From Nitrosophilus kaiyonis (lineage in GTDB: Bacteria > Campylobacterota > Campylobacteria > Campylobacterales > Nitratiruptoraceae): 64,000 nt of DNA. The position numbers and the translations under genes are program-made. The notes beneath the pieces are model-generated. The model worked only from the letters and a program-made list of their open reading frames with translations, had not been told where the DNA came from and did not search any database. Of the stretch, positions 53,906-64,000 are shown one piece after another. The DNA lies in contig NZ_AP025696.1 of assembly GCF_027943725.1 (NCBI RefSeq), positions 969,501 through 1,033,500 on the forward strand, written 5' to 3'. The stretch's first letter is position 1. Every line of letters starts with the position of its first letter.

Positions 53906-54626
53906 GATGAATTTTCAGCTTATTTATATTTTGCCAAATCTTTTTACTGCTGCAAGTGCTTTTATTGGTGTTATTAGTATTATCGCTGCTTCTAAAGGAG
54001 AGTTTGAAAAAGCAGCCTGGCTAATTTTATTATCTTTAATATTTGATGGATTAGATGGAAGAATTGCAAGGCTTACTCACACTACAAGCAAATTTGGAAT
54101 GGAGTTTGATTCTTTAGCTGATATTGTAGCTTTTGGTGCGGCTCCTGCTATGCTTTTATATTTTTGTTGTGGTAATGAATTTGGTAGATTTGGCTCTTTA
54201 GTTTCAGCTATCTTTGTTGTATTTGGAGCTATAAGACTTGCAAGATTTAATGTTATGGCACCATCTAGTGAACCATCTGTTTTTATTGGTGTTCCAATTC
54301 CAACTGCTGCTGTATTTATTGCGGTATGGATATTGATGTATCAAAAATATCCGATGTTAAAAGATTTTTCGTTACTTTTATTAATCGGAGCACTAATTTG
54401 TGCATTTTTAATGGTTAGTAATATAAGATATCCAAGTTTTAAAAAAATTGAATTAAAAAAGATGTATGTTATTAAGATATTGATAATTTTAATTATTACA
54501 TTTTCTTTATTGTATTTATATCCTATTGAAGGAATCACTGTTTTTATAACTATTTATATTTTATATGGAATTTTTAGAGCTCTATTTTATGTATTACTTA
54601 GAAAAAAACGAAAAAATATAGTATAA
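53898..54626 (+). CDS. pssA: CDP-diacylglycerol-serine O-phosphatidyltransferase PssA
   Basis: A 242-residue polytopic phosphatidyltransferase making phosphatidylserine. The CDP-alcohol motif is in FDGLDGRIARLTHTTSKFGM...DSLAD (about 49-77: D-G-x2-A-R-x8-G-x3-D-x3-D). About seven helices. TTG 53898 has AAAGGAAG at good spacing; ATG 53907 is the alternative. Overlaps the psd-like gene by 8 bases, so the two are coupled. Confidence 0.93.
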   Translation: MNKMNFQLIYILPNLFTAASAFIGVISIIAASKGEFEKAAWLILLSLIFDGLDGRIARLTHTTSKFGMEFDSLADIVAFGAAPAMLLYFCCGNEFGRFGSLVSAIFVVFGAIRLARFNVMAPSSEPSVFIGVPIPTAAVFIAVWILMYQKYPMLKDFSLLLLIGALICAFLMVSNIRYPSFKKIELKKMYVIKILIILIITFSLLYLYPIEGITVFITIYILYGIFRALFYVLLRKKRKNIV

Positions 54627-54627
54627 T
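54622..54627 (+). promoter_or_regulatory. -10 box TATAAT for leuA
   Basis: A consensus hexamer overlapping the pssA stop and 53 bases before ATG 54680. A small TCAATT/AATTGA inverted repeat lies in the leader (about 54641-54660). It would let leuA be expressed independently of the ftsH-pssA genes. Confidence 0.45.
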
Positions 54628-54679
54628 ATGGAAAAAAATTATCAATTAATAAAAATTGAATTATGCTAAGGAATTAAAA

Positions 54680-56233
54680 ATGAGTGAAATTGTAAAAATA
54701 TTTGATACAACTTTGAGAGATGGTGAGCAAAGTCCTGGTGCTTCAATGAATACAGAAGAAAAAATACAAATAGCAAAACAGCTTGAAAAATTGGGTGTGG
54801 ATATTATTGAAGCTGGTTTTGCTGCTGCAAGCCCTGGGGATTTTGAAGCAATAAGTAGAATAAGTGAGATTGTAACTAAAAGTACTATTTGTTCATTGGC
54901 AAGAGCTGTAGAAAAAGATATAAAAGCTGCAGGTGAAGCTATAAAAAATGCAAAACTAAAAAGAATACACACCTTTATTGCAACAAGTCCAATTCATATG
55001 AAATATAAACTTAGAATGGAACCTGATACAGTTATAAAAAGAGCAGTTGAAGCTGTGAAATATGCAAAAACTTTTGTTGATGATGTTGAATTTAGCTGTG
55101 AAGATGCTGGTAGAAGTGAAATGAGCTTTTTAAAAGAGATAATTGATGAAGTAATCAAAGTAGGTGCTAAAACTATTAATATCCCAGATACTGTTGGATA
55201 TAGGCTTCCACATGAAATGGCAGAGATGATAAAAGAGTTAAAAGATTTTATAAAAGATAGGGCTATCATCTCTGTTCATTGTCATAATGATTTAGGTCTT
55301 GCAAGTGCTAACTCTTTGTATAGTGTTTTAAATGGTGCAAGACAGATAGAGTGTACAATAAACGGTCTTGGAGAAAGGGCTGGAAATGCTGCTTTAGAAG
55401 AAGTAGTTATGGCAATTAAAACAAGAAAAGATATTTTCAAAGGAATTGATACAAATATAAATACTAAAGAGATATATCCAACAAGTCGCCTTGTATCAGC
55501 AATAACAGGGATTGAGCCTCAGCCAAATAAAGCTATTGTTGGAAGAAATGCGTTTGCTCATGAGAGTGGAATACATCAAGATGGAGTTTTAAAACATAAA
55601 GAGACATATGAGATTATGCGAGCAGAAGATATCGGATTTGAGACAAATAGAATTGTTTTAGGAAAACATTCGGGAAGACATGCGTTTAAAGAGAGAATAA
55701 AATCTTTGGGATTTGATTTGAGTGACGAGGAGTTAAATAAAGCATTTGAGCGATTTAAAATTTTAGCTGATAAGAAAAAAGAGATAACTGATGATGATTT
55801 AAGGATGATAATTACGAGTGAATTGACAAGTATTCCTGAAGTATATAAGTTAAAAAAACTTCAAATTAGTGATTGTAGTGAAGGTGTACCAAGTGCAGCA
55901 GTAACAATTGAATATGAAGATAAAGAGATTACAGATGCTGGTGTTGGTGATGGAACAATAGATGCCATATTTAAAACTATTGATAGGATAAGCGGATATA
56001 AAGGCACACTTAATGATTATCAAGTAAGTGCAGTTAGCAAAGGAAAAGATGCATTAGCAAAAGTTGTAGTTAAAGTTGTTTTTGATAAAAGCAAACCTGC
56101 AGTTATTGGACATGGTTTAAGTATAGATACAATGATAGCAAGTGCTAAAGCATATATTGGAGCATTAAATAGCTTTATCTCAATGAAAGATATTTTAAAG
56201 AAAAAAAGATGTGAAGAGGGGGATGACATATAA
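54680..56233 (+). CDS. leuA: 2-isopropylmalate synthase LeuA
   Basis: A 517-residue first enzyme of leucine synthesis. [17 protein letters not shown] (about 6-22) is the catalytic start of the TIM barrel. [15 protein letters not shown] has the metal His pair, and [19 protein letters not shown] and HESGIHQDG complete the site. Residues about 390-510 form the regulatory LeuA-dimer domain for leucine feedback. ATG 54680 follows AAGGA; an in-frame ATG at 54656 adds eight unconserved residues. Its stop lies inside the terminator hairpin. Confidence 0.96.
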
Positions 56234-56259
56234 GCTTTTTGCTTATATGTCATTTTTTT
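56223..56259. terminator. bidirectional Rho-independent terminator shared by leuA and the PilZ gene
   Basis: A perfect 13-bp stem, ATGACATATAAGC (56223-56235) with GCTTATATGTCAT (56241-56253), loop TTTTT, followed by a T run on the plus strand (56253-56259). On the minus strand the A/T content before the stem is weaker as a T run. The stop codons of both convergent genes are within the stem. Confidence 0.85.
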
Positions 56260-57103
56260 GAGAAAGTTGATTTATGAATTTTGAAATAGAAGATTCAAAA
56301 TCTTTTTTTATATTTTTAAATTCAATACCTATAACAATTTTTTGATTTTCTTTAATTATATATTTTATATTAGCTTCTACAAAGAATATTTTTTGGTCCA
56401 TTGAAAACTTTAATGAAAGTGGTTCAGCTTTATCAATTTCAGAGTCAAAATTTTTTAGAAATATTTGTGCTCCATTTTTACTTATATTAGAAAAATTTCC
56501 TATAAATGTACTTGTCTTTTTATATATATTTTTATATTTAATTTCTAATGGTATTTCTATAGGATATCTATCATTTTTTCTTTTTTGTCTAATTTCAAAT
56601 TTTTCAGAATGCATAGTAGTAAGCAGAGTCATGCCAGATATATTTTGAATATTTAAAATTTTTGTTTTAAATAGATAGAATTTACCATCCTCTTTTCTTA
56701 AAAAACCTAATTTTATAATATCATTTGGTTTAAAATGGTTTATAAATTTAGGAGATATTTTCCAAAAAAGTTTTTTTTCACTATTTTTATATAGTGCTAT
56801 TTCTATTTTATTACTATTTAAAATATATGCTTTTTGATTGATTTTTATATATTTTGTGTTATATAATGGAAATTTGGATTCGAAAAAATGAAATTTCTCT
56901 CTTATACTTTTTAATAATCTTTCATCTTCTTCTTTTATAGTTGGGATTTTTTCAAGCCATTTATTTATATAATTTTCAAAAACTTTAATATCTTTAATAT
57001 TATTATGAAAATCTTTGATTATTAATATATTTTTTAAAAGATTTTGTTCTTTTTCGTTTAATTTAAACTCTTTTGCAAGTTGTTTAATATTTATATTTTT
57101 CAA
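56243..57103 (-). CDS. PilZ-domain protein (candidate c-di-GMP receptor)
   Basis: 286 residues. The C-terminal PilZ domain (about 180-275) has the binding pair QKRKNDRYP (R-x3-R type) and GNFSNISKNGAQIFL (N-x-S-x2-G, Asn for the usual Asp). The middle (about 95-175) is a YcgR-N-like beta domain, and the N-terminal 80 residues are helical. No membrane segment. Likely links c-di-GMP to motility or surface behaviour; this is inferred from family. Converges on leuA. Confidence 0.8.
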   Translation of the reverse strand: MKNINIKQLAKEFKLNEKEQNLLKNILIIKDFHNNIKDIKVFENYINKWLEKIPTIKEEDERLLKSIREKFHFFESKFPLYNTKYIKINQKAYILNSNKIEIALYKNSEKKLFWKISPKFINHFKPNDIIKLGFLRKEDGKFYLFKTKILNIQNISGMTLLTTMHSEKFEIRQKRKNDRYPIEIPLEIKYKNIYKKTSTFIGNFSNISKNGAQIFLKNFDSEIDKAEPLSLKFSMDQKIFFVEANIKYIIKENQKIVIGIEFKNIKKDFESSISKFINQLSQKNDI

Positions 57104-57194
57104 GAAAAAATCCTCTAAAAAAATTAAATTAATTAAATTGTATCATATACATGTTGCAAAAGAGTTCCAAATTAAGTATAAATATTTTAAAAAT

Positions 57195-58439
57195 TTATAG
57201 ATATTTTTTCAATATTTCTGGGATTATAATAGATCCATCTTTTTGTTGATAATTTTCCATGATGGCAATCAGAGTTCTTCCCACAGCAAGACTTGAGCCA
57301 TTTAAAGTATGAACAAGGCGATTTTTCTTGCCATCTTTATATCTTATCATTGCACGTCTAGCTTGAAAATCTCTTGTATTTGAGATTGAACTTATCTCTC
57401 TATATCTGTTTTGGCCTGGTAGCCACACTTCAAGATCAATAGTTTTAGCTGCACTAAATCCAAGATCCCCAGTACAAAGCATAACCCATCTATGAGGAAG
57501 ATTTAGAGATGTTAAAAGATCACTTGCACAATTAACCATCTCTTCAAACATTTTATCACTATCTTCAGGTTTTGTTATAGCTACAAGTTCAACTTTATCA
57601 AATTGATGCTGTCTTATCATACCTCTTACATCTCTTCCTCCACTTCCTGCCTCTTTTCTAAAACATGGAGTATATGCTGTTAATTTAATTGGTTCATTTA
57701 AATCTGCAATAATCTCATCTCTATATAGATTTGTTAATGGAACTTCAGCTGTTGGGATGAGATACAGATCTTCATCTTCAATCTTAAAAAGATCATCTTC
57801 AAATTTCGGAAGTTGTCCAGTTCCAAGAAGTGTCTTAGAATTTACCAAAAATGGAACATAAACCTCTTTAAATCCTCTATTTTTATTAAAATCAAGCATA
57901 TAATTAATTAGTGCTCTCTCAAGAGCTGCAGCCTCATTTTTTAAAACAGCAAATCTACTTTTAGCAAGCTTTACTCCTCTTTTAAAATCTATCCAATCAA
58001 GTTTTTCTCCTAGCTCCCAATGCTCTTTTGGAGTAAAATCAAACTTTTTAGGCTCTAAAACTTTTTTTAATTCAACATTATCCTCTTCATCTTTTCCTAT
58101 TGGAACATCTGGATCTGGAATATTTGGTATTTGTAAAGCAAGCTTTTTCAATTCTTCTTCTATATCTTTTACAATCTCTTGATGAGCTATAATTTTTGCT
58201 TTGTTTTCATCAACCTGAATTTTTAGCTCATTTATATCTTTTCCCTCTTTTTTATATATACCAAAAAGTTTTGAGAATTGATTTTGTTTTGCTTGAAACT
58301 CTTCTAAGACTCTTTTTTCCTCTTTATATTTTGAAAAAAGCTCTTTTAACTCAAGTAGTAATCGCTCCTCAACACCTTTTGTTTGAAGTTTTTTGGCAAT
58401 TTCATCAAAATTTTTTTCTAAAAGTTTCAGATCAAGCAT
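57195..58439 (-). CDS. serS: seryl-tRNA synthetase
   Basis: A 414-residue class II synthetase. An N-terminal antiparallel coiled coil (about 28-100) binds the tRNA long arm. [38 protein letters not shown] (motif 2), STGDLG-like [18 protein letters not shown], and [19 protein letters not shown] (motif 3) form the active site. ATG 58439 ([11 protein letters not shown]) is the family start, preceded by GGGAGATT. A longer start at 58451 is rejected. Confidence 0.96.
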
Positions 58440-58465
58440 ATAATCTCCCAATATTTTTTTTAAAA

Positions 58466-58471
58466 ATTATA
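58466..58471 (-). promoter_or_regulatory. -10 box TATAAT for serS
   Basis: A consensus hexamer 27 bases before the serS ATG in the 43-base gap after the amidotransferase gene. Spacing to the start leaves only a short leader. Confidence 0.4.
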
Positions 58472-58482
58472 ATGAAAAGTTA

Positions 58483-59154
58483 CTATGAAAGTTCTAAATT
58501 TTTTGCTTTTTTAATAAAATTATTAAAAATTTTTTGTGAAGATTTTAAATAAGGCATAAATTCTGGATGCCACTGAACTCCTAATATATTTAAAGTTTCA
58601 TGCTCAATTGCCTGAATGATATGATTTTTATCATATGCACTTTTTTTAAGTCCAAGGCCTATTTTATCTACCGCTTGATGATGTAAAGCATTTACTTTTA
58701 TGCGTTCGCTCATTATGATTTTATAAAGATGAGAGTCCTTTTTTATAAAAACATCTTTTAATGGAAGAGGAGTTTTTGGATGGGGATGGTTTAGGTCTAA
58801 ATCTTTAATATCAAAATGTAAAGTCCCTTCAAAAAAAACATTTATCAACTGCATTCCTCTACATATTCCAAATACCGGTAAATTTTTCATTAGGGCTTTT
58901 TCTAAAAAAAAGAGCTCCATTTCATCTCTTTTAATATCAAAATTAGAAAATTTATAACTCGTTTCTCCATAAAGTGATGGATTTATATCAATCCCGCCAC
59001 TAATTATAAGTCCATTAAACTCAATATTTTTATTAAAATTTTTTGGAGATATAAATATAGGCTTTGTTTTATATGTTTTTAAAATGAATTTTATAAAGCT
59101 CCAAGCAATTTTACTTCCTCTATCTGAACCTGTAACTAAGATTTTTATAGACAA
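58483..59154 (-). CDS. class I glutamine amidotransferase-like peptidase (C26/PuuD-like)
   Basis: 223 residues. The family mark ISGGIDINPSLYGE is at about 51-64. The nucleophile Cys is in FGICRGMQLIN (about 92-102), and the catalytic His-x-Glu in GVQWHPEF (about 195-202). C26 enzymes hydrolyse gamma-glutamyl amide bonds. Here it overlaps the amidoligase gene by 10 bases, so it probably removes or remodels the amide that the amidoligase makes, or supplies ammonia. Partner and substrate are unknown. Confidence 0.85.
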   Translation of the reverse strand: MSIKILVTGSDRGSKIAWSFIKFILKTYKTKPIFISPKNFNKNIEFNGLIISGGIDINPSLYGETSYKFSNFDIKRDEMELFFLEKALMKNLPVFGICRGMQLINVFFEGTLHFDIKDLDLNHPHPKTPLPLKDVFIKKDSHLYKIIMSERIKVNALHHQAVDKIGLGLKKSAYDKNHIIQAIEHETLNILGVQWHPEFMPYLKSSQKIFNNFIKKAKNLELS

Positions 59155-60146
59155 TAAAATTCCTTAAACTCTTTTTTTATAAAACTATCAATTTTATCTA
59201 CCCAAGAAGATGTTATAAACCATAAAGGAGATTTTAAAAACTCTTTATACTCTGTACATAGCTTTTTTAATTTCGTTTTTTGATAGGCTAAATGTTCTAT
59301 TAGGCTCCAGTAATTAAACTCTTTTGCAATTGACCAATCATCTTCATCAATTCTAGAATTTGGGAGCCTATAATGAAAAGCAGGTCTTGGGGATATTTTT
59401 TCATTTGGAAGTTTCTTTTTTACATTCTCATTAATAAATGCAAAAAGTGGCAAAAGATCAAGAGCTCTATTTCTTGTTGGATTATATAAGATATAATCTG
59501 CAATAAGATTATCAATATCTGGTCTATAATCTAAATCTATAACTTTTAAAATATAATCTATTTCAAATGGATCAATAAACCAAGTAAGTTTTCTTGTTAA
59601 ATCTATATTGCTTTTTTCTTTTATCCAATCATATAAAATCAAAAAAGATCTTAAAATATCTAAAATTTCAGATGGTTCAAATGAATAAGTTTCTATATTT
59701 ATATGCAATCCAAAAGCGAAAAAAATAGAAGATTTTGTGCCAAGAGCACCTCTTTTTTTAAGTTTTTCTCTTAAAGTTTCTATTTTTTGCAAAGAGTCTA
59801 ATTTTATAGGTGGAGTTACTATCTCATAAGGCACTATAGTTTCTGAAATAGATAATAAAATATCTTCAATATTTTCAATCTCTTTTTTATCTAAAAAGAG
59901 ATTTTTATATTTTTCTTCAAATTCTCTTAAAAATTTACTATCAATATAAAGTATAAAATCTCCAAATATTGTATCTTTTATCTTTATAAAATAGACTTTA
60001 TCTTTTATTATTTTCCCGCCAAATAACTCTATAATAATTGCAGCACACTCTTTTAAAGTAATGCCGCTATATTCTATCTCAAATCCTACCTTTCTTAACT
60101 CATTATTTGTATTGATTTTTATTGGTGGAAGGATAAAATCTTGCAT
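59145..60146 (-). CDS. amidoligase-family enzyme (glutamine-synthetase-like COOH-NH2 ligase)
   Basis: 333 residues. RKVGFEIEYSGITLKECA (about 18-35) has the metal-binding Glu-x-Glu that opens the fold. The later blocks FGLHINIETY, then NPTRNRALDLLPLFAF, and PRPAFHYRLPNSRIDEDDWS are the ones I associate with the putative amidoligase family. Such enzymes are predicted to join a carboxyl to an amine in peptides or small metabolites using ATP. One base overlap with the small protein upstream and ten with the amidotransferase downstream make a three-gene unit. Confidence 0.82.
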   Translation of the reverse strand: MQDFILPPIKINTNNELRKVGFEIEYSGITLKECAAIIIELFGGKIIKDKVYFIKIKDTIFGDFILYIDSKFLREFEEKYKNLFLDKKEIENIEDILLSISETIVPYEIVTPPIKLDSLQKIETLREKLKKRGALGTKSSIFFAFGLHINIETYSFEPSEILDILRSFLILYDWIKEKSNIDLTRKLTWFIDPFEIDYILKVIDLDYRPDIDNLIADYILYNPTRNRALDLLPLFAFINENVKKKLPNEKISPRPAFHYRLPNSRIDEDDWSIAKEFNYWSLIEHLAYQKTKLKKLCTEYKEFLKSPLWFITSSWVDKIDSFIKKEFKEFYCL

Positions 60147-60376
60147 TATATCTCTTTAGGGCAGGCCATCTCCACAATAACTTTTATAATATTATCTTCT
60201 TGTATAGCATAAAATCTATGTTTTTTACACCAGTTAGCATTTGCATGATTTGCAAGTCTTAAAGCTTCAAATTCTGCCTCTTTTAAATTATCAAAACTTT
60301 TATCTAACCATTCACTTTTTAGTTTTTCATCTTTTTTTGCACATCCACACATTTTTTCAAGCTCTATTTTATACAT
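60146..60376 (-). CDS. small Cys-containing protein coupled to amidoligase, unknown
   Basis: 76 residues, no recognised family. CGCAKKDEK near residue 10, an Ala-rich helix EAEFEALRLANHANANWC, then KKHRFYAIQEDN, and a final ACPKEI. Four Cys in total could bind metal. A strong GGAGGAATTTAATG start region is built from the last crcB codons (TAATG overlap), and its own stop shares a base with the amidoligase ATG. It could be the amidoligase's peptide substrate or a carrier; that is a hypothesis from position. Confidence 0.7.
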   Translation of the reverse strand: MYKIELEKMCGCAKKDEKLKSEWLDKSFDNLKEAEFEALRLANHANANWCKKHRFYAIQEDNIIKVIVEMACPKEI

Positions 60377-60762
60377 TAAATTCCTCCATATATCTTTTTA
60401 AACAAAATTATACCTGCTATTGTTGATAGAATGGATAAAAAAACATTTAAAGTAATATTTGTAATAGCTCTATAATATAATGAATTTTGAAGCATAGAAA
60501 CTGTTTCATAACTAAATGTTGAAAAAGTTGTTAGTGCACCTAAAAAACCTGTTATTAATAGAGCTTTTTGATTTGGAGAGATAACATTTTCAAAATAAAG
60601 AGCCAAAAATCCAATAATAAAACTCCCCAGCATGTTAACACCAAGGGTTCCCAAAGGAAAAAAAGAGCCTGTAAATTTTTGAATAAATGTTGATATTAAA
60701 AATCTACTAACTGCTCCAAAAAATCCGCCAATTCCTATAGCAAAAATTAAGCTAATATTCAT
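60376..60762 (-). CDS. crcB: fluoride channel CrcB/Fluc
   Basis: A 128-residue, four-helix membrane protein that exports fluoride as a dual-topology dimer. IGGFFGAVSRFLIS (about 8-21), GTLGVNMLGSFIIGF (about 39-53) and GALTTFSTFSYE (about 74-85, the TFS(T/S)F fluoride-lining motif) are all present. ATG 60762 has GGAG seven bases upstream; the longer TTG frame is rejected. DUF190 lies just upstream, a common partner. Confidence 0.92.
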   Translation of the reverse strand: MNISLIFAIGIGGFFGAVSRFLISTFIQKFTGSFFPLGTLGVNMLGSFIIGFLALYFENVISPNQKALLITGFLGALTTFSTFSYETVSMLQNSLYYRAITNITLNVFLSILSTIAGIILFKKIYGGI

Positions 60763-60882
60763 ATTTTGCTCCAAAAGATAATAGTTATTAGTGTATTAGT
60801 ATATTGGTGTATAGGCAATTTAGAATTGAGAATATATAAAGTATTTTTATCAATAATTAATAACCAATTACTAATTACTAAT

Positions 60883-61230
60883 TTATTGTTCAAATTTTGG
60901 ATGTTTATAGCTTATTACATCAACATCCATTAAAGTAACCAATCCCTCTTCAATCATAAGCTCAACATTTCTTAAAAAACTCATAATTTTATCTTCTTTA
61001 TCTATTATTTCTATAATAATTGGTAATTTTTGACTCATACTCCAAATAGAAAATGAACTAATTTCTGAGTGTGCTCCCATTCCTGCAACACCTTTAAAAA
61101 CAGTAGCACCAGATATTCCATTCTCTTTAGCTTTTTTTAATATGGCTTCCCATAAGGGTTTATTTTCATATTTATCATCATTATCTATATATATTCTTAA
61201 TATTTTTCTTGGACCTAAATAGCGTTTCAT
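60883..61230 (-). CDS. DUF190-family protein, crcB-associated
   Basis: 115 residues with a ferredoxin-like, PII-like pattern: LRIYIDNDDKYENKPLWEAI, GISGATVFKGVAGMGAHSEI (about 40-59) and LPIIIEIIDKEDKI. This family often accompanies crcB genes, and its role is unknown, possibly regulatory nucleotide sensing given the fold. It follows trpS by 9 bases, and a word-rich 120-base gap (60763-60882) separates it from crcB. Confidence 0.88.
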   Translation of the reverse strand: MKRYLGPRKILRIYIDNDDKYENKPLWEAILKKAKENGISGATVFKGVAGMGAHSEISSFSIWSMSQKLPIIIEIIDKEDKIMSFLRNVELMIEEGLVTLMDVDVISYKHPKFEQ

Positions 61231-61239
61231 TTTTTTCCT

Positions 61240-62238
61240 TTAATCAATACTACATTTTATCTCAAAAACTGCTTCATTTACTTTTTGCATTTTTTTAGAT
61301 GCAATATCTTTGGCCTTTTGATTTCCCTCATTTATAATATTATCTATATATTCATCATTTAAAGTGGCTCTTTTTTCCCTCATTGGCTCTAATACTTTTT
61401 CTATTGATTCAAGACACCATTTTTTACACTCAATACAGCCAATTGTTGCATTTTTGCATCCTTCTTCTACTTTTTTTATTGTCTCTTCGTCACTAAAAGC
61501 TTTATGATAGTCAAAAACCAAACATTTTTGAGGATCACCTGGATCGGTTTTTCTTACTCTTTGAGGATCAGTCTTTGCAACTCTAAGTTTTTGCCATATT
61601 TCATCTTTTGTATCTGTTAAATAAATCGCATTATTATAGCTTTTGCTCATTTTTCTGCCATCAAGTCCTAAAAGTCTTGGAGTAGGACTTAAAAGCTCTT
61701 GAGGTTCAGTAAAAATTTCACAATCAAAAAGATGATGAAATCTTCTAACTATCTCCCTAGCTATTTCAAGATGAGGTCTTTGATCTTCTCCAATTGGAAC
61801 TTTGTTTGCATCATAAAGAATAATATCTGCTGTTTGTAAAACTGGATATGTTAAAAATCCTCCAGTTCTTATATCTTTTCCGCCTTTTTCTTGAAGCTGT
61901 TGAAGTTGATCTTTATATGTTGGATTTCTTTCAAGCCAACCAAGAGGTGTTATCATATTTAAAATTACATATAGCTCAGAATGCTCTTTTATATTGCTTT
62001 GTATAAAAATTGTACTTTTATCTGGATCAATGCCTGCTGCAATCCAATCTTTTACTAACTCTTTACTCAAATTTTTGAGATTTAGCTTATCTTCATAACT
62101 TGTAGATAGTGCATGCCAATCAGCAACAAAGAAAAAGCATTCATTCTCTTTTTGAAGATCTATCCAATTTTTTAATACTCCAAGATAGTGGCCAAGATGA
62201 AGTTTACCCGTGGGTCTCATACCGCTAACAATTCGCAT
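61240..62238 (-). CDS. trpS: tryptophanyl-tRNA synthetase
   Basis: A 332-residue class I synthetase. MRIVSGMRPTGKLHLGHYLG (HIGH-type motif at about 13-17) opens the true protein, and GRKMSKSYNN (about 192-201) is the KMSKS loop. GEDQRPHLEIAREI is also typical. ATG 62238 has AAGGAG upstream. A longer frame to 62322 runs through ACGAATT word DNA and would add 28 residues with no family match, so it is rejected. Confidence 0.95.
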   Translation of the reverse strand: MRIVSGMRPTGKLHLGHYLGVLKNWIDLQKENECFFFVADWHALSTSYEDKLNLKNLSKELVKDWIAAGIDPDKSTIFIQSNIKEHSELYVILNMITPLGWLERNPTYKDQLQQLQEKGGKDIRTGGFLTYPVLQTADIILYDANKVPIGEDQRPHLEIAREIVRRFHHLFDCEIFTEPQELLSPTPRLLGLDGRKMSKSYNNAIYLTDTKDEIWQKLRVAKTDPQRVRKTDPGDPQKCLVFDYHKAFSDEETIKKVEEGCKNATIGCIECKKWCLESIEKVLEPMREKRATLNDEYIDNIINEGNQKAKDIASKKMQKVNEAVFEIKCSID

Positions 62239-62631
62239 TTTTCTCCTTTGTTTTGTAGTTCGTAATTCGTGATTCGTAAATCGTAAACCGTGAATCGTAA
62301 TTCGTGAATCGTGATTAAACATTTGACATTGGGAATTAGTGTTAGTATTAGTATTAAATTATCACTATCCACTATCCCGTTATGTCCCTATTTCACTTTC
62401 TTACTTTCTCACTCAACTTACATAATATTTAACCGAAAATCTTCGCTTGCTTCGCTCACTTTATTTTCATTAATGTAAACCAGCTGTTCGTATGCTCAGA
62501 CACGAAATTCCTTGAATTTCGGCTTCGCATATACTCACAGCTTTCGCTTCGGGACGCAAGCAAAGCAGTTTGCTTGCTCAAAGCTTCGCTTTGCCCTTGC
62601 TCACTTAAATCTTAACTCCAATAACCAATGA
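62239..62631. repeat. 393-base gene-free gap of word repeats holding structured copy C
   Basis: From the trpS side: seven or so TCGTAATTCG/TCGTGAATCG units (62255-62320), GACATTGGGAATTAGTG, AGTATTAGTATTA, CACTATCCACTATCCCG and TTACTTTCTCACTC units, then the structured element. After it, CCAATAACCAATGACTAATG words run into the end of der. No coding sense. Confidence 0.8.
62427..62604 (-). repeat. structured multi-hairpin element, copy C (candidate RNA)
   Basis: Read on the minus strand it matches copy B over the same length. 62472-62536 is the exact complement of 49987-50051 (65 bases). The first hairpin stem is entirely different in sequence, GCAAGCAA/TTGCTTGC (62577-62570 with 62563-62556), yet still fully paired around the same ACTGCT loop. 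AAAGC-GAA-GCTTT is kept; the last stem is GAAAAT/ATTTTC followed by CGGTTAAAT. It lies in sense between der and trpS. Confidence 0.83.
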
Positions 62632-64000
62632 CTAATGACTATTGACTGACGACTCCTCATCCCTTTCCCCTCTTTTGCGAGGAGTTAATATAACAGGTGT
62701 TCCCTCAAGGTCAAAATTTTCTCTTAGTTTATTTATAAGATATCTTTTGTAACTAAAATGAAGTCCTTCAGGTCTATTCATAATTAGAGCAATTTTTGGT
62801 GGTTTTGTTTCATATTGTGTTGCAAATAGTATATTTACTGGTTTGCCATAATATGATGGAATTGCATGTCTTTGAGTTGCCTCTTTTATAATTTTATTTA
62901 ATTTAGAAGTTGGTATCCAACTTGAATAGTTTTTATAAACTTTTAGTATTAAATCATATATTTTGTCAACTCTTTTTTTTGTTTTTGCACTAACTGTTAT
63001 CACTGGGGCAAAATTTAAAAATCTAAATCTATCTCTAACTTTTTTTATAGCCTCTTCATAGCTCATTTTAGCTTCATCCCATTTATTTAAAACGATTATG
63101 CATCCAAGATTGTATCTATCTACAAGTCCTGCAATTTTTTCATCTTGTTCGCTAAATCCTTCGCTTGCATCAAGTACGACCAAAGCTATATCGCTTCTTT
63201 GAAGCATTTTTTCTGTTCTGTTGAGCGCAAATTTTTCTAATCCTTTAATTTTTCCTCTTCGTCTAATACCTGCAGTATCAACAAATGTAATAACTTTATC
63301 TTTATATAGATATGTTTCATCAACTACATCAATAGTAGTCCCTGCAACGTCACTAACAATAGAGCGCTCTTCTTTCAAAAGAGCATTTAAAAGTGAGCTT
63401 TTCCCAACATTTACTCTCCCAATTATTGCAACATTTATCTCATTTGATTCCTCTTCTTTTTTCTCTTCAATTTCTTCTAAAAAAGAGTCAATATCAAGTT
63501 CCTCATCCTCTTCTATAACTAAAAATTCTTTTTTTGGAAGTCTTGATTCTATCCAATCAATCAGTTTTTTAACTTTTCTATTATGAGAAACTGAAATAGG
63601 AAAAATATTTTGAGTACCGAAAGAGTAAAACTCCCAAACATTCTCTTCTAATTTGTCATTATCTATTTTATTAACAACTAAAGCAACATCTTTATTAAGT
63701 TTTAAAAGATCTAAAAAAATTTTTTTGTCTTCATCATCAGGGAGTTTTTGTCCATCAACCATATAAAGAACAATATCTGCTTCTTTTGCAGCTTCCAAAG
63801 CTTTTTCTTTTACTTTATTGAAAAGTTCATCTCTGTCTTCAAGTCCACCAGTATCAATTAAAATAGCCTCTTTTTCTCCAATTTTTATAGGCTTTTTTTT
63901 AATATCCCTTGTGGTACCGGCCACTTCGCTTGTTATAGCAACTCTTTGTTTTAAGAGTCTATTAAATAGAGAGCTTTTTCCAACATTTGGTTTTCCTAAA
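62632..64000 (-). CDS. der: ribosome-assembly GTPase Der (EngA), N-terminus beyond window
   Basis: A double-GTPase protein for 50S maturation. The frame runs to the window edge: LGKPNVGKSSLFNRLL (G1 of domain 1) is encoded at about 63950-64000, so the ATG at 63924 is not the start and a few N-terminal residues are missing. Domain 1 continues with AGTTRD, DTGG and VNKID; domain 2 has GRVNVGKSSLLNALL, DTAGIRRRG and LNKWD. The KH-like C-terminal domain follows and ends GTPVILTPRKRG. The last residues (about EESSVNSH) and stop come from the AGTCAATAGTCATTAG word. Confidence 0.94.
   Translation of the reverse strand, partial: LGKPNVGKSSLFNRLLKQRVAITSEVAGTTRDIKKKPIKIGEKEAILIDTGGLEDRDELFNKVKEKALEAAKEADIVLYMVDGQKLPDDEDKKIFLDLLKLNKDVALVVNKIDNDKLEENVWEFYSFGTQNIFPISVSHNRKVKKLIDWIESRLPKKEFLVIEEDEELDIDSFLEEIEEKKEEESNEINVAIIGRVNVGKSSLLNALLKEERSIVSDVAGTTIDVVDETYLYKDKVITFVDTAGIRRRGKIKGLEKFALNRTEKMLQRSDIALVVLDASEGFSEQDEKIAGLVDRYNLGCIIVLNKWDEAKMSYEEAIKKVRDRFRFLNFAPVITVSAKTKKRVDKIYDLILKVYKNYSSWIPTSKLNKIIKEATQRHAIPSYYGKPVNILFATQYETKPPKIALIMNRPEGLHFSYKRYLINKLRENFDLEGTPVILTPRKRGERDEESSVNSH

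Follow-up and report, generated by a model that had tools for sequence, protein, structure and literature searches.

The amidoligase and C26 genes found in the window (the whole 64,000-nt stretch of Nitrosophilus kaiyonis DNA that was analysed) form a real, conserved unit, and the small cysteine-containing protein encoded next to them is probably a neighbour unrelated to the two enzymes. The reading we favour, to which we assign a probability of roughly 0.6, is that the pair would comprise an ATP-dependent γ-glutamyl-type ligase and the hydrolase that opposes it, with a small molecule as their substrate, beside an independent small protein. Of the peptide-modification module originally predicted for these three genes, the conserved amidoligase-C26 pair stands and the small protein as its member does not. 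The enzyme pair is of an already described kind; its genomic place is new.

Gene arrangement and surroundings

The features concerned, with their positions in the window, are as follows.

57195..58451, minus strand: serS (seryl-tRNA synthetase), context; orthologues in 22 of 22 genomes
58483..59154, minus strand: C26 gene, 223 aa, TTG start; PF07722
59145..60146, minus strand: amidoligase gene, 333 aa, ATG start; PF12224
60146..60376, minus strand: small gene, 76 aa, ATG start; unnamed Campylobacterota family
60149..60157, minus strand: AAAGAGATA, the closing Lys-Glu-Ile codons of the small gene and a candidate Shine-Dalgarno-like sequence for the amidoligase gene; AAAGAG is retained at the DNA level in the nine loci with both genes
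60376..60774, minus strand: crcB (fluoride-channel family), 132 aa; PF02537, 7.6e-28
60883..61230, minus strand: DUF190 gene, a conserved crcB neighbour, context; PF02641, 7.6e-36

The genes overlap by 1–10 bases, as had originally been claimed: crcB and the small gene share 1 nt, as do the small gene and the amidoligase gene (TAATG in both cases), and the amidoligase and C26 genes share 10 nt. On the minus strand the small gene is preceded by ATATGGAGGAATTTAATG, within which GGAGG is formed by the last Gly-Gly codons of crcB, and the original prediction that this site is built from the end of crcB was therefore correct. Both the overlaps and the crcB-encoded GGAGG were seen again in relatives from the window's family, in which the spacing is −1 or −4 nt between the small gene and the ligase and −1 or +1 nt between crcB and the small gene; because of this recurrence the arrangement is more than chance. 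Since the genes overlap, the pair probably shares a transcript with its neighbours and is translationally coupled to them. Promoter-like sites occurred at the frequency expected by chance, no Rfam elements were found in 54000–64000, and no fluoride riboswitch was detected there.

In the window's family the gene order is der-trpS-DUF190-crcB-small-ligase-C26-serS (no serS was found at the L032 locus), and the small gene is kept with the pair in seven of the eight genomes of this family, as well as at L031 and L032. Genome G057, also of this family, possesses the pair without the small gene, its order being crcB-ligase-C26-serS, with no remnant of the small gene in the 177-nt gap. The f11 genome G125 has trpS-DUF190-crcB-small-serS, the pair being absent from there, and the f13 genome G210 has trpS-small-small-serS, again without the pair. 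Three f11 genomes encode a membrane-protein-like product of approximately 273–293 aa between crcB and serS (L101:614-1495, L104:2811-3635, L105:605-1426). This changing content between crcB and serS argues that the stretch is a variable slot, which the pair would occupy whether or not the small gene follows crcB. The simplest reading is that the pair was inserted after a pre-existing small gene; losses in other families would look identical.

The amidoligase and its C26 partner

The amidoligase matches Amidoligase_2 (PF12224) with an E-value of 2.5e-60 and 204.8 bits (cut-off 22), over model positions 3–244 of 245. Alignment of 28 sequences reveals that E23, E25, R225, R254, H258, and R260 are invariant. 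The ExE motif and the basic residues match what would be expected of a glutamine-synthetase-like active site, and are candidates for a catalytic role. A sequence search returned no solved relatives of this protein, and no functional study of Amidoligase_2 was found in PubMed Central.

The C26 protein matches Peptidase_C26 (PF07722; E 1.6e-43) with 149 bits, versus 66 for the general GATase model. The nearest solved structure is that of Lin1909 (3fij, 2.1e-23) and, among named enzymes, that of PuuD (6vtv, 2.6e-12). In 23 sequences C98, H196, and E198 are invariant, along with an RD motif. The protein is predicted to be γ-glutamyl hydrolase-like, or class I glutamine amidotransferase-like, with Cys98, His196, and Glu198 as candidate catalytic residues.

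Among the 298 Campylobacterota genomes surveyed, 21 match PF12224, 20 of them at full length and one (G250) in part. These counts come from whole-genome searches; a single-sequence amidoligase scan of the contigs gave two loci only. A C26 orthologue is present in all 20 genomes with a full-length amidoligase, versus five of the 278 without (Fisher p 8e-27, uncorrected for kinship), and in 19 of the 20 the two genes are adjacent and in the same order, ligase then C26. In the remaining genome, G125, each of the two genes is found close to the start of a contig, and contig ends have apparently split the pair. The partial match, on G250 contig 13 (L067), is divergent (E 1.6e-20, positions 40–244); it lies amid many short genes, where no C26 partner was detected.

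The surroundings of the pair differ between families, that is, the loci are unrelated. In f11 a DEAD-box helicase and an HI0933-like flavoprotein precede the pair, and in f7 and f8 it is located elsewhere. It recurs in the Alphaproteobacteria, on plasmids of Dinoroseobacter and of another Rhodobacteraceae strain (L142, L147). At L142 it is preceded by an aldehyde dehydrogenase and an amino-acid-binding protein, neighbours that could suit the use of a γ-glutamylated amine. The ligase and C26 trees mostly agree on which close relatives belong together, but in the C26 tree the window's family is not a single clade (forks of 80–92% support), and for this reason strict co-inheritance of the pair is not proven. 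The expectation that the amidoligase works beside a glutamine amidotransferase-like protein is, as far as the pairing is concerned, upheld by these data.

Iyer et al. 2009 (Mol Biosyst 5:1636; by way of PMC4431377 and PMC10580990) reportedly predicted Amidoligase_2 with a glutamine amidotransferase-like neighbour, and the pairing found here is of the kind described in that work and in the Pfam entry. Both protein families, the order of ligase then C26, and the tight spacing are shared with those systems; by comparison, the present pair resides in a trpS-DUF190-crcB-serS neighbourhood, behind a small Campylobacterota gene.

In the favoured reading, the amidoligase would couple an amine to a carboxylate (most probably the γ-carboxyl of glutamate) at the expense of ATP, and a γ-glutamyl-type amide would be cleaved by the C26 enzyme. 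From the resemblances above we infer such a bond, a small-molecule substrate for the pair, and a C26 enzyme that would act after the ligase rather than supplying it with ammonia. Since the AF2 model of the amidoligase is poor (pLDDT 53.6), the favoured chemistry rests on family resemblance. In the γ-glutamylputrescine pathway of putrescine use PuuA ligates and PuuD hydrolyses, and both there and here an ATP-dependent ligase of the glutamine synthetase superfamily would be combined with a C26 hydrolase. The ligase described here, however, belongs to another family than PuuA, and within the window no oxidoreductase or dehydrogenase of that pathway adjoins the pair; nor do genes for further putrescine-like steps. 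The aldehyde dehydrogenase matches of the genome lie far from the pair and the single PF00120 match is also elsewhere, positions that neither support nor exclude a catabolic route like that of PuuA and PuuD.

The small cysteine protein

A profile search reveals the small-protein family in 65 of the 298 Campylobacterota genomes, 51 of which lack a full-length amidoligase. The original prediction was that this protein might be the substrate or a carrier, and wide occurrence without the ligase had been named as the observation that would speak against it; this distribution, together with genome G057, where the pair occurs without the small gene, does not bear the prediction out. The residues C10, C12, N46, C50, and H53 are invariant in 20 aligned members. 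Zinc, iron, or another metal ion is probably bound by the CxC and CxxH residues, the four invariant Cys/His candidate ligands (C10, C12, C50, H53) being what is looked for in a small metal-binding protein. In the favoured reading it would be a member of a separate metal-binding family, sharing no function with the pair. In L032, a close relative, Arg replaces the Gly between the two Cys residues.

The small protein belongs to no Pfam or NCBIfam family, and scans of 20 members against both collections gave scattered weak matches to unrelated families (best E 0.0013). Its AF2 model, built from three sequences, has a β-α-β-β fold with a mean pLDDT of 80.6; a fold search with it returned no match better than E 0.77, and no solved relative was found by sequence. 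The distribution of a RiPP-like precursor would depend on its modifying enzyme, and that of the small protein does not, as the genome counts and G057 reveal. The leader and variable core of such a precursor are likewise not seen, conservation being spread over the body of the protein. A role as partner of crcB was rejected, as in G210 the small gene lies directly after a trpS-like gene and there is no crcB.

Members of the family are found in varied surroundings, with several copies in some genomes. At L070:5849-6279 a trpS-like gene and serS flank two tandem copies (72 and 70 aa, 1-nt overlap), of which the second has CNC instead of CGC. In the f4 genomes L022, L023, L027, L028, and L030 (small genes at approximately 1440–1750) the protein carries a GCCGGGHCS-like Cys/His tail at its C-terminus. 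The small gene adjoins a YajQ-like gene, recognised by eye, in L016, L022, L023, and L026, and the Sulfurovum mangrovi copy (L148) has an annotated YajQ nearby.

In several f8 genomes, members lie just downstream of nifD-nifK-like genes (L138:4638-5083, two copies; L132:7907-8146; L139:8854-9093; L141:4823-5050); PF00148 was confirmed in L138 only, the calls in L132, L139, and L141 having been made by eye. In f7 a member adjoins a gene of the nitrogenase-component-1 family (L137:4808-6157). The small family may be linked to the handling of metal for nitrogenase. The gene immediately ahead of the nifD-like one in L138 (L138:8393-8752) encodes a 119-aa protein that matches nothing in Pfam at E 1e-10 and has look-alikes in L132, L139, and L141.

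Among the loci read, the small gene adjoins the amidoligase gene only in the window's family and at L031 and L032. Outside the window's family the small protein is present in seven of the 12 ligase genomes versus 51 of 278 (p 0.003, uncorrected for kinship), three of the seven belonging to one genus. This co-occurrence and the retention of the small gene beside the pair are weak evidence for some link.

Alternative readings and the ends of genes

If the C26 protein were a glutaminase subunit releasing ammonia, with the amidoligase amidating a carboxylate, the pair would operate as MurT-GatD does in peptidoglycan amidation (PMC3267633, PMC5871853). MurT-GatD unites a ligase with a partner of the glutamine amidotransferase fold in one transcript, as is probable for the present pair; MurT, however, is Mur-ligase-like, whereas the partner here best matches C26 hydrolases. 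Tight coupling and full co-occurrence of the ligase and C26 would suit such a role, as would the conserved Cys-His-Glu residues and the additional match to the class I GATase model, but the C26 hydrolase model fits far better, and the closest solved structures include Lin1909 and PuuD. Furthermore, other amidoligases on alphaproteobacterial plasmids have no C26 or GATase gene listed next to them, in a gene table that is incomplete and with a gene that could be elsewhere. We consider ammonia release rather unlikely. A further reading, that the pair modifies a larger macromolecule (peptidoglycan or another protein, as in peptide tagging) and that the C26 enzyme removes the tag, follows a general proposal made for families of amidoligases. 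Phages have been reported to carry an amidoligase together with a GATase of a different family, for which cell wall modification is cited as a suggestion (PMC10580990). Between families, however, only the C26 gene accompanies the ligase in the loci read, where neighbours were partly identified, and we hold this reading to be improbable.

The small protein would enter the chemistry if the amidoligase modified it, for instance at the C-terminal Lys-Glu-Ile, and the C26 enzyme reversed the modification. Nine loci of the window's kind retain the overlapping genes side by side, a conserved C-terminal PKE is confined to the small proteins of those loci, and there is the mild co-occurrence outside the window's family; but the 51 genomes and G057 separate protein and enzymes, adjacency does not, in the loci read, extend to the other families, where the small gene may lie by serS without a ligase, and in place of a leader and core it is the CxC/CxxH body that is conserved. 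The Lys-Glu codons, moreover, can be read as the Shine-Dalgarno-like AAAGAG of the ligase. Such a role is very improbable, and we think equally little of the variant in which an older stand-alone metal-binding protein was recruited by the pair in one family as substrate, carrier, or partner, its Lys-Glu tail being modified. If true, recruitment would represent a protein-modification system made by the insertion of genes beside an older one.

Upstream of a ligase the C-terminus of the small protein is PKE followed by a single residue; in families without the ligase it ends in other residues. AAAGAG is found a few bases before the ligase start in all nine loci carrying both genes, and in G057, where crcB ends in YG, the second Gly codon and GGAGG are both missing. 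The simplest reading is that the Lys-Glu tail of the small protein and the Gly-Gly of crcB have been retained as sequences for ribosome binding at the gene that follows. Since the Lys-Glu codons can be read in this manner, it is not necessary to read the tail as a modification site.

Returning to the favoured reading of a ligase and an opposing hydrolase, a conserved, co-inherited enzyme pair is here set apart from a neighbour that merely resembles its substrate, and as the pair is small and complete an assay is within reach. The CxC/CxxH family, unnamed in Pfam and NCBIfam and found near nitrogenase genes, may be the more useful lead. Overlapping genes may also shape the ends of proteins, the Gly-Gly of crcB and the Lys-Glu of the small protein both being readable as signals; in tightly packed genomes, conserved tails should be checked for translation signals before they are called modification sites.
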